Origin: Sulfurisphaera ohwakuensis
Lineage (GTDB): Archaea > Thermoproteota > Thermoprotei_A > Sulfolobales > Sulfolobaceae
DNA length: 64,000 bases
Direction of reading: 5' to 3'
Assembly (NCBI RefSeq): GCF_009729055.1
Contig: NZ_CP045484.1
Location: 496,001 to 560,000, forward strand
Shown one piece after another: positions 9,226-64,000 of the stretch. A program made the translations under genes and the position numbers. Each line of letters starts with the position of its first letter. The stretch's first letter is position 1. The notes below the pieces were generated by a model, which did not search any database, was not told where the DNA came from, and saw nothing but the letters and a program-made list of their open reading frames with translations.

Positions 9226-9249
9226 CAATTTAGAATTAAATGGTTATCG

Positions 9250-10806
9250 ATGGAAATTCAAAAAACCTTTTCCCAAACTAATCTTATAAAGTTATCAATA
9301 ATACTAATCAGTTTTTCCATCATTCTATTATCGTTGCACCCGTTTGGACAAACATCATCAAATACTACAGCAGAAATACAGAGTTTAAATCAAAGTATTT
9401 TAGCTTTAGAAAATCATACAGCAGATTATCCATCTGCAGCGGTTCCTAGCTGGTTAGATACTGGTAGTAACGCATGGATGCTTACGGCTGCAACATTCGT
9501 AGGTCTTCAAAGCGTTCCTGGTGTAGCACTATATTATGCTGGATTATCTAAAAAGAAATACGCTGTAAATTCTGCATTAATGGTATTTTATGCTTTTGCT
9601 GCAGTTTTAGTTGTTTGGATGATAGCTGGCTATAATGCTGGTTTTGGTCATCCCGCATTACTTAGTATTAATGGTTATGGAATTTTAGGTTATCCAGTTC
9701 CAGCATGGTTAGGCCATTATGAAGCTAGTCAAACAATATATGGGCCAACTGGAACGCCAGTGGATATTCCAACATCTACTTACATATTCTTCCAGTTTGT
9801 CTTTGCTGCAATAACTCCAGTATTATTAGCTGGCGGAGTATTAGAGAGAATGAATTTCAAAGCATGGATGATATTTGTACCCTTCTGGAGTTTATTAGTA
9901 TATAGCCCAGTAGCTTATTGGTTATTTGCAGGAGGATGGTTATACCAACTAGGAGCAGTAGACTTTAGTGGAGGATATGTAATTCATGTAGATGCTGGTG
10001 TTGGTGCGTTAGCTGCTGCATTAGCAATAGGTCCCAGATTAGCATCTGAAAGAAAATTAGAAGCTCATAGTCTACCATTGGTTCTTGCAGGAGCTGGGTT
10101 AATTTGGTTAGGATGGGATGGGTTTAACGGTGGTGATCCAGGCGGTGCAACAATTGATGCTGCAATAGCCGTATTAAACACAAATATTGCAACAGCTGTG
10201 AGTGCAATAACCTGGATGTTAATGGATATGGCATTCTTTAAGAAGCCGACATTAGTAGGTGCAACAAGTGGTGCAGTAACTGGATTAGTAGCTATTACAC
10301 CAGCTGCAGGATACGTAAATGGTTGGGAGGCAATACTTATTGGAATTGCATCTGGAAGCATACCGTGGTTATCTCTATATAAATTTGAGCCTAGACTAAA
10401 AGTTGATGATACATTAGGAGTATTCTCCACCCACGGTATTGCAGGAATAGTAGGAGGATTACTAACTGGTGTGTTTGCAGATCCCAATGTAACTAAATAT
10501 GTATTACCGGGTTTAACTGGTGCATTATATGGTAATTTCTATCAGTTAGGAATACAAGCCGCAGCTGCTGCTATAGTATTTGTTTATGATTTTGGAGTAA
10601 CTTTTGGCTTATTGAAGCTAATAGGATTGTTCGTACCATTGCAAGCACCGCCAGATACATTGGCAATTGGTGATTATGCAATGCATGGAGAAGTAGCATA
10701 TTCTGAACTATTAGCTACTTTACCAGAATCTCAGATAAAGAAGGAAGAAATTAGGGAAGAGGCACCAGAAGAGAAAGAAGATCCAGATAAGAAAAAATCT
10801 GACTGA
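9250..10806 (+). CDS. amt: Ammonium transporter Amt
   Basis: From ATG 9250 the protein has 518 residues. It begins with a hydrophobic signal-like segment (residues 12-28) and then eleven transmembrane helices typical of Amt/Rh channels. Family signatures are plain: [45 protein letters not shown] and [16 protein letters not shown], the latter two carrying the twin pore histidines. The C-terminal tail is highly charged (Glu/Lys-rich). An upstream in-frame GTG at 9127 would add 41 poorly membrane-like residues and lies before the TATA box, so I reject it. No GlnK/PII gene adjoins it. Confidence 0.92.
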
Positions 10807-61984: not shown

Positions 61985-62580
61985 TTTTCATTAATTATGT
62001 CTCAGTAAAGTAAACTATCTGCATTGTAGTTATAATGTTTCTTTTTATTAGTTTTTAGATTATAAAAAATCAGTTTATAAAAAAGAAAGAACATAAGTAT
62101 ATTTCTACTGAAAAGATGACAAGCGATACTGTTAATAATTAATCAAAGAACAGAATTTTAAATTAGCTTAGACAAATATTCTAGGAATTATATTAAGCTT
62201 TTGAAGACTGTAGCAGGGGTCTTTCACGGCTCTCTTGCGAATTCACTTTATTTTATCGAATTGATTGTACATTGATAATTGGAGAGACCAAGAAGTTATA
62301 CCACGGACTTAATGGGGATAATGATATACAATCAATTATTTCTTCATAAAATTATACTAAATTAAGAGAATATTACAATTTGCATAAGAAACTTGGCTCA
62401 CACCTTGTAGCATAACTTTTAGCTATAATTACTCACTTTTCATTATTACGTAGATGTTTATTTAAGTGCTTGAGGATTAAGCAGATTAAAAGAAAATTAC
62501 GTTACTAGTAAATATTAATATATCAATAGTTCTCTCAAACTCATATAGTAATTGATTTAAGTACCACAATATATATGAAT
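61985..62580. other. Gene-less stretch downstream of eL13
   Basis: 596 bases, AT-rich, no open frame of note and no RNA signature. A slightly GC-richer patch at 62205-62260 (GTAGCAGGGGTCTTTCACGG) has no identifiable origin. Confidence 0.4.
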
Positions 62581-62582
62581 TT

Positions 62583-62981
62583 ATGGAAGAAGAATATCTA
62601 GTCTTTGATGAAAATGGTAACTTACTAAGAAGGTTTTCTGATATTGAGTCTTTGTATAAGTTTGTTTTGGAAAAGACGAAGGAAGGAAAGAAAGTAAAAA
62701 TAAAAGGTCCATCAAAGGAATATTTTTTAATAGTTTCTGGTAAAAAAATTGAAAAATTTTCAACAGCAGAGGAGGCATTTAAGGAAGCAAAACAACATAT
62801 TCTTAAGGGAGAGAATGTGGAAGTTATAAGCGGAGATGCATATCTTGTCTTTAGCCAGGAAGGAGAATTATTAGGAAGGTTTTCTGATATTGAGTCTTTG
62901 TATAAGTTTGTTTTGGAAAAGACGAAGGAAGGAAAGAAAGTAAAAATAAAAGGTCCATCAAAAATTTATTTATTCTTGTGA
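62583..62981 (+). CDS. Small repeat protein with near-identical first and third units
   Basis: 132 residues made of three units of about 41 residues, each strand-helix-strand: EYLVFDENGNLLRRFSDIES..., EYFLIVSGKKIEKFSTAEEA..., YLVFSQEGELLGRFSDIES.... Units 1 and 3 are encoded in part by an 88-bp perfect direct repeat, while unit 2 is diverged. The protein ends shortly after unit 3. Its stop overlaps the start of the retropepsin-like gene (GTGA), so the two are coupled. Not a family I recognise. Confidence 0.65.
   Translation: MEEEYLVFDENGNLLRRFSDIESLYKFVLEKTKEGKKVKIKGPSKEYFLIVSGKKIEKFSTAEEAFKEAKQHILKGENVEVISGDAYLVFSQEGELLGRFSDIESLYKFVLEKTKEGKKVKIKGPSKIYLFL
62629..62716 (+). repeat. 88-bp perfect direct repeat, copy 1
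   Basis: Identical to 62875-62962 at an offset of 246 bases, which is 82 codons, so both copies are read in the same frame inside the repeat protein. Synonymous sites are identical too, which indicates recent duplication or gene conversion. Confidence 0.95.
62875..62962 (+). repeat. 88-bp perfect direct repeat, copy 2
   Basis: Second copy of the intragenic repeat; ends 16 bases before the TGA of the repeat protein. Confidence 0.95.
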
Positions 62982-63295
62982 GAATAAAGGCTAAGATTAA
63001 CGACGTGGAAGATTGGTTTATTGTAGATACTGGATTTAGTGGCGACATAATGGTTAATTATGAAATATTCGAGAAAATACCTTTTCCTACATTTGATGCA
63101 GGTTTAGTATGCATAACTGAGAATGAATGTTATATAGCTTTCGGAAAGATCTCTACATTTAGAATACTGGGTAATGAAATTAATACTGTAGTATTATGGA
63201 TCCCTCAATTAGATGAAAATTTGATTGGTGAAGGGGCGTTAATAAAACTAGGTTTAGTTATAAACTACAAGGACTTTACGGTTCTTGATCCTTAA
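62978..63295 (+). CDS. Retropepsin-like aspartyl protease (COG5550 type)
   Basis: 105 residues, GTG start overlapping the preceding stop. The catalytic D17-T-G triad in FIVDTGFSGD and the C-terminal NLIGEGALIKLGLVINY, the usual L-I-G-x-x-x-L flap end, fit the small retropepsin-like proteases, which act as homodimers. Physical coupling to a repeat protein suggests they work together. Confidence 0.75.
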   Translation: MRIKAKINDVEDWFIVDTGFSGDIMVNYEIFEKIPFPTFDAGLVCITENECYIAFGKISTFRILGNEINTVVLWIPQLDENLIGEGALIKLGLVINYKDFTVLDP

Positions 63296-63508: not shown

Positions 63509-64000
63509 TTAGGGTATAAATTCTGAGATTAGTCTTCTCTCCCATAAGACTATTGCTATGGAGTGCTTTATCATACTTATACTCCTATTTACTGCCTTTG
63601 TTGCCCTCTTGAAGCGTACAAGCCTATCCCTTAGTGAGGAATGTAGCCCCTCGTTGGGGTTAACCGGTGAGACAATCGTGTGATCCTTTAACCAAAAGTT
63701 GTAATCATCACTCACCCACCATCTGGCAAGTACATTTTAATCTCACTGAAAGTATTCTCATCCCTATCACCAACAGAGTAAACTAGTAGAATCCAAGACT
63801 TGTGTAAACGTAACAAGTAAACTTGTAGAAAGCCCTAGTGTTCCTGCACAAGTAGGCCCACATCTCACCAACAACCTTAGTAACAACCTTACCCTTAACA
63901 AACTCTTTAGCCTTATTCCACTAACTTCTCACACTTCCGCCTACTTAACACAAATAAACACAGTACCCAAAGGTACGTTAAGAACCCTAGAAATAGCCCT
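63509..64000 (-). pseudogene. Decayed IS1-family transposase, running off the window
   Basis: On the minus strand three frames must be joined: KAKEFVKGKVVTKVVGEMWAY (the conserved IS1 E-M-W), then ENTFSEIKMYLPDGG, then VSDDYNFWLKDHTIVSPVNP, HSSLRDRLVRFKRATKAVNR and a family C-terminus. In-frame stops and at least two frameshifts separate them. The upstream part (RAISRVLNVPLGTVF) continues to the window edge, so the terminal inverted repeats cannot be seen. Confidence 0.7.

Follow-up and report, generated by a model that had tools for sequence, protein, structure and literature searches.

What kind of protein is built from three copies of one short unit, and what does it do beside the retropepsin-like protease whose gene it overlaps? 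The question is raised by two forward-strand genes near the end of the 64,000-nucleotide stretch of Sulfurisphaera ohwakuensis DNA that we analysed as a whole (hereafter the window). The first gene (62583-62981) is predicted to encode a protein of 132 residues with three units of about 41 residues each (42, then 40): unit 1 spans residues 5-46 (62595-62720), the diverged unit 2 residues 47-86 (62721-62840) and unit 3 residues 87-128 (62841-62966), after which the chain ends in a final half-strand, YLFL. Units 1 and 3 are 86% identical over the entire unit (141 nt) and share a perfect repeat of exactly 88 bp (62629-62716 and 62875-62962), the longest within the gene, whose copies are spaced by 246 nt, or 2 x 41 codons; chance cannot plausibly account for an exact match of this length inside a gene of 399 bp. 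The stop codon overlaps the GTG start of the DTG protease gene by 4 nt (GTGA). An earlier note on this DNA had described the perfect repeat, the three units with their diverged middle member and the overlap with the protease, and all were found again. A 16-nt block 5' of the repeat gene, TAGTAATTGATTTAAG (62546-62561, forward strand), recurs with the same letters 5' of the ortholog in a second species of the genus and lies about 21 nt 5' of the ATG; it is a candidate BRE/TATA element, to which we ascribe a putative promoter role, and the mRNA is likely leaderless. Scans for sigma-70 promoters, the wrong promoter type for archaea, and for terminators gave matches at chance level.

The second gene (62978-63295, GTG start) encodes a retropepsin-like clan AA aspartic protease of the DTGF type with 105 residues, which scores 62.9 bits against TIGR03698 (clan_AA_DTGF; cut-off 57.35). 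Its catalytic D-T-G (residues 17-19, 63026-63034) is followed by F20, and D17, G19 and F20 are invariant across 18 proteases. In the second conserved motif, LIGEGAL (residues 82-88, 63221-63241), which corresponds to the hydrophobic-hydrophobic-Gly element of retropepsins, G84 and E85 are likewise invariant in this set and L88 is nearly so. The predicted model (pLDDT 92) adopts a retropepsin fold, for which Foldseek retrieved HIV-1 protease (E 6.6e-5, TM 0.66-0.73). The protein also matches the PADLOC profile PDLC01133 PEPT_D, annotated as 'Aspartyl protease, in the type III operon in Sulfolobales' (E 2.1e-18, 64.6 bits, compared with 183 for a member from III-G), and no cas7, cas5, cas10 or csx26 cluster member was found within the locus around the window pair. 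Transposase fragments of one family lie just 3' of each of the genome's two tail-protease pairs (63509-64000 in the window; 9239-9877 in the second locus, L091), and transposase remnants adjoin several of the loci described below; an insertion sequence may have moved or trimmed both pairs of the window genome.

The identity of the repeat unit links this pair to CRISPR. The earlier note had recognised no known family for the repeat protein; this no longer holds, as two stretches of it match the NCBIfam CRISPR ring nuclease profile NF040951 (E 4.5e-8), confined to positions 283-320 of the 322 in that profile. The sequence comparisons identify the unit as the C-terminal tail, about 45 residues long, of CARF7 CRISPR ring nucleases of the Sso1393 (PDB 3qyf) type, and the SSO1393 chain in 3qyf itself shows a weak match to the unit at residues 286-322. 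Only this tail part of NF040951 is matched, no CARF domain was found in the repeat protein, and a search for a CARF remnant 5' of its gene found none. A search of 197 genomes from this order gave matches to the unit that stood out clearly from noise in two contexts only, stand-alone repeat genes and the C-termini of ring nucleases about 322 residues long, and in both contexts the next gene encodes the DTGF protease. Alignment of repeat units with ring-nuclease tails by hhalign scored 52-59. Profile comparison of window-type units gave 35.6 against the tails of III-G Cas7 proteins and 29.7, over about 28 columns, against the tails of ribbon-helix-helix (RHH) partners discussed below, the best control reaching 18.8 (168 control segments); ring-nuclease tails alone tie to the RHH-partner tails only via the repeat units. 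Pfam gave nothing convincing for the repeat protein, with no match to DUF5678 (PF18929) and no RHH or HTH domain, while its homologue in genome G175 reached DUF5678 at E 0.11. The predicted model of the repeat protein shows a bbab arrangement three times (pLDDT 72). A fold search with this single-sequence model found no natural PDB protein above background, its best match being to a designed protein with three repeats (8fjf, Z 6.1). Evidence on the fold is therefore confined to secondary structure; SSO1393 was absent from the fold-search lists, which is uninformative either way.

In each setting in which we found this protease lineage, it is accompanied by such a tail. The first setting is a ring-nuclease gene followed by the protease gene, overlapping by 11-38 nt or touching, in eight genomes (G131, G078, G072 (Metallosphaera yellowstonensis), G175, G108, G125, G146 and G096). 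Tail and protease occur together at 8 of 30 ring-nuclease loci and are both missing from the other 22; the eight comprise six tails detected by HMM with an overlapping protease, one divergent III-G-like tail (gap 0) and one broken ring-nuclease gene, that of G096, in which tail and protease were nevertheless kept. The second setting is the operon of CRISPR subtype III-G, where the protease gene lies between two cas7 genes (G155, G119, G042, G179, G108 and G136) and the neighbours match Cas10g, Cas5_IIIg, Cas7_IIIg and Csx26; a control with S. acidocaldarius returned matches for the protease family and Cas10g. In the six operons with a protease, Cas7 has 384-419 residues and carries a C-terminal extension of the unit pattern, for example RLQLLDENNAVLGEYDTLNEAEKAKEELEKQGKKVRIVPRGVMELL, whereas in three operons without it Cas7 has 319-344 residues and stops just short of the extension, although these three may represent one evolutionary event. 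No GGDD motif is present in the Cas10g of the III-G loci examined. The same gene is split by internal stops at one same place in G119 (L105, 9915-12409, reverse strand) and in a remnant in G131 (L260, 7366-8201, reverse strand); the first 74 and the next 206 residues are identical between the two, pointing to recent transfer or to a common inactivated copy. The third setting is the stand-alone one, in which tandem units precede the protease in the window, at a second locus of the window genome, in G078 and in G175, together with two decayed copies. The coupling described in the earlier note, whose idea of a recognition system depended on the protease neighbour recurring among homologues of the repeat gene, was borne out: the protease lies directly 3' of every intact homologue found.

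The descent of these proteases was followed in a tree of 40 sequences. CRISPR-linked and stand-alone proteases form one clade (100/100) and the RHH-type proteases are placed in a separate one (100/100). Within the CRISPR-linked clade, the four stand-alone proteases form a clade of their own (100/100), which is sister to seven of the eight ring-nuclease proteases (90/95). With the RHH type taken as outgroup, the window pair came from a CRISPR-associated lineage. The remaining ring-nuclease protease, that of G146, groups with a III-G protease (82/87), and the tail of the G146 ring nuclease is likewise III-G-like (29.2 bits versus about 6 for the ring-nuclease model). By its tail type and its position in the tree, this case suggests that tail and protease behave as a cassette that moves as one. 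The locus (L103, 8133-9407, reverse strand) thus looks as if the cassette of a ring nuclease had been exchanged for one of III-G type. Partner types are distributed over the tree with four changes, the minimum possible being three. Neither the protease nor the repeat protein had relatives among the phages, plasmids or IMG/VR contigs searched, and we therefore rejected an origin or spread by viruses or plasmids.

A related arrangement exists outside CRISPR. Among 60 further DTG proteases sampled across the class, a unit-bearing 5' partner overlaps or adjoins the protease gene in 22 of 24 DTGF cases, compared with 2 of 35 proteases of other types (DTGA, DTGS or DTGT; Fisher 7.6e-12), as scored with a partner HMM built from the same surveyed loci; both exceptions read NTGF. 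Counting any close co-directional 5' ORF leaves the direction unchanged without the partner HMM (23 of 24 versus 8 of 35, 1.9e-8). The partner in this sister lineage combines an RHH N-terminus (RHH_1, FitA-like, PSK_trans_fac) with a DUF5678-like bbab C-terminus, and the window genome also encodes such a protein with a DTGF protease (L006/L222). A mirror-tree analysis of the RHH lineage (partial Mantel, 0.42 versus 0.46) did not separate tail-protease from RHH-protease co-evolution. Outside Sulfolobaceae, DTGF proteases without a partner occur at L186 and L195, both from the survey, and at L174, and L172 offers only a doubtful ORF. At L186/L175 (G110:C94) the DTGF protease overlaps a 5' DTGA protease, giving a retropepsin-like tandem that lacks a bbab partner. 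In two genomes of one genus (L177/L178; G155:C1:2202743 and G131:C1:1822886) the catalytic Asp of DTGF-type proteases has become Asn (VNTGF) and the RHH partner gene is retained, intact in L178; pseudo-enzymes or a recent inactivation common to both are possible explanations. In a Chloroflexi MAG (SB0662_bin_28; L173, 5514-6285), a DTGF protease overlaps a 5' gene whose C-terminal half, KFVAIDVDTEDYEVGMD...VLTGQRVGY, resembles a divergent bbab unit, and the module may therefore reach Bacteria.

The stand-alone genes themselves combine constraint with exchange. Compared with the closest relative, G078, dN/dS is 0.13 and 0.12 for the two genes of the window species, with synonymous changes high in places, which indicates that both the repeat gene and the protease gene are under purifying selection. 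In each of the four intact repeat genes, units 1 and 3 of the same gene (95, 96, 91 and 78% identical over 93 nt) are closer to each other than units are between genes (82-87% for the window versus G078, 57-63% for all others). Units 1 and 3 are thus homogenised by recombination, and this is recurrent and common to all four intact genes. A G078 locus that is syntenic with the second pair of the window genome retains a single unit, made of the first half of unit 1 and the second half of unit 3, as expected for the product of a deletion. The earlier note's description of the repeat protein as fast-changing holds for this dynamic recombination between units 1 and 3 and fails for the coding sequences as a whole. 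Unit number does vary, as its proposed comparison of unit numbers had anticipated: all four genes with an intact protease have three units, and both decayed copies, in which the protease is broken, have one.

Taken together, a tail of this kind looks like a dedicated partner, and probably a leash, of these HIV-protease-like enzymes. Our preferred reading, which we hold with somewhat more belief than doubt, is that of a protease with its dedicated partner, in which the portable unit of about 41 residues travels with the DTGF clade, very likely binds it and most likely restrains it in the manner of an antitoxin. The data directly show homology, association, co-variation, descent from the CRISPR-associated clade and the homogenisation of units 1 and 3; physical binding, inhibition, the match to a homodimer, the trigger and the substrates are what we infer from these patterns. 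The repeat partner would be made first and the translationally coupled protease would be captured during its synthesis, after which the unit would hold the enzyme inactive or in place by antitoxin-like docking; where the tail is fused to a carrier, the fusion would put the protease under that carrier's control. Since retropepsins are homodimers, a pair of matching sites would be sensible: units 1 and 3 could provide an equal site for each chain of the enzyme, in place of the two tails presented by a CARF or RHH dimer, just as a ring-nuclease dimer would present its tail twice. The related domain on RHH proteins occupies the position that the toxin-binding part has in type II antitoxins. More tentatively, and with less belief than doubt, we suggest that a portable docking tail plugs one retropepsin clade into different sensors, yielding a cA4-controlled protease on the ring nuclease and a protease switched by target RNA on III-G Cas7, with the window pair as a cassette freed from CRISPR and working on its own as a protease-inhibitor module. 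Compared with Sso2081, Sso1393 is weaker by a factor of about ten (PMC10018336), a property that would fit a sensor with a built-in timer such as CalpL, in which the SAVED domain is also a ring nuclease (PMC11417357). Cyclic oligoadenylate signalling has been lost in subtype III-G (PMC12669027), and there the Cas7 backbone could exert control directly.

Against docking, an identical co-variation would be expected were the tail the substrate of the protease. The enzyme would then trim the tail from the protein encoded upstream, maturing Cas7 or activating the ring nuclease, and the stand-alone repeat would be a cleavable decoy or a polyprotein of tail peptides. The tails track the protease in their presence, and they end in hydrophobic stretches such as VYFLGL, of the kind that retropepsins can cleave. 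That the III-G protease matures subunits has already been proposed by Garrett and colleagues (PMC4390879, section 9.2), and the C-terminal wHTH domain of the Sso1393 orthologue is reported to be auto-inhibitory (PMC10018336), both of which would fit trimming. However, a free protein consisting of tails only has nothing to mature, and for this reason a role as tether or inhibitor seems to us likelier than one as cleavage substrate only. Purifying selection on all three units of the repeat gene and the toxin-binding position of the related RHH-borne domain also speak against trimming, as does the presence of the tail in the crystallised SSO1393 chain (3qyf, residues 286-322), though this chain was presumably made without its protease. 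We regard trimming as a minority explanation that deserves to be taken seriously.

Two further explanations concern the window pair itself, and we give little credence to either. It could be a decaying, functionless leftover of a ring nuclease-protease operon that has shed its CARF part, which would agree with the sister relationship of the stand-alone and ring-nuclease proteases, the two clearly broken further copies, the transposase remnants at several loci and the window genome's lack of a tail-bearing ring nuclease. Yet both genes are intact at four loci in two genera, with the low dN/dS reported above and an invariant active site, every intact copy has kept the three-unit structure, and a CARF remnant 5' of the repeat gene is lacking, which makes decay an improbable account. 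The same sister relationship would fit a regulator of CRISPR signalling in trans, in which the free tail protein and the tailed ring nucleases compete for the latter's protease, the former acting as a decoy or immunity protein, and G078 and G175 each carry an intact solo pair together with a tailed ring nuclease and its protease. The window genome, however, has neither a tailed ring nuclease nor a III-G Cas10 (Cas10g), though it has three Cas10 proteins with an intact GGDD, and a CRISPR role in trans therefore cannot be the sole role there; as a general explanation it appears equally improbable.

The pair resembles several known systems in part. It shares the tail unit, the gene order and the overlap with a DTGF protease with the SSO1393-type CARF7 ring nuclease (Crn1 family), but the window protein has three units and no CARF or wHTH domain and cannot be a ring nuclease. 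The III-G aspartate protease (PDLC01133 PEPT_D; 'asp' in PMC4390879) belongs to the same clade and also follows a tailed protein, Cas7, in overlapping genes, whereas the window pair lies outside a cas operon, with a non-Cas protein as partner. The pairs of an RHH + DUF5678-like protein and a DTGF protease have the same two-gene order, with a related bbab-domain protein first and the protease second; the window partner differs in lacking the DNA-binding N-terminus, and the proteases fall into separate clades. Type II toxin-antitoxin modules are similar in their small overlapping operon with the partner first, their patchy paralogous distribution and the antitoxin-like RHH domain found in relatives, but here the partner has no DNA-binding domain and the putative effector is a retropepsin. 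As the window protein lacks an RHH domain, autoregulation of the toxin-antitoxin type is not available to it. A 2009 survey of toxin-antitoxin systems names Zn-dependent proteases with Xre partners (PMC2701414), and a search of its text for terms denoting an aspartic protease found none. In Craspase (III-E, caspase family) and CalpL (SAVED-Lon), too, a type III effector or a messenger sensor controls a protease; the protease class differs, and docking would here use a separate tail domain. Among proteases, the 2025 CRISPR classification mentions just the caspase and Lon types (PMC12669027).

An aspartate protease in III-G had been described before (PMC4390879; PADLOC). In the literature covered, which is partial and does not prove absence, we found no account of the tail or of how it co-varies with the protease, none of the pairing with ring nucleases, the RHH partner or the stand-alone repeats, and none linking COG5550 or DUF5678 to CRISPR or toxin-antitoxin systems. 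The earlier note had proposed an undescribed recognition or processing system; the conserved coupled pair agrees with this, except that the pair derives from a wider module of protease plus partner and is no isolated system, and processing is one of two live mechanisms.

The role of the III-G accessory protease has been unexplained since it was first noted, and a tail that tracks the protease across Cas7, ring nuclease and stand-alone repeats predicts which partner holds it and which domain to remove. The weak ring nuclease Sso1393 might additionally serve as a sensor that bears a protease. The occurrence of the module outside CRISPR suggests a little-noticed archaeal family of protease-antitoxin pairs. 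If the docking-tail reading is true, these retropepsins would be a third protease class among CRISPR effectors, and the window pair would represent a CRISPR effector cassette that has escaped to a toxin-antitoxin-like life.
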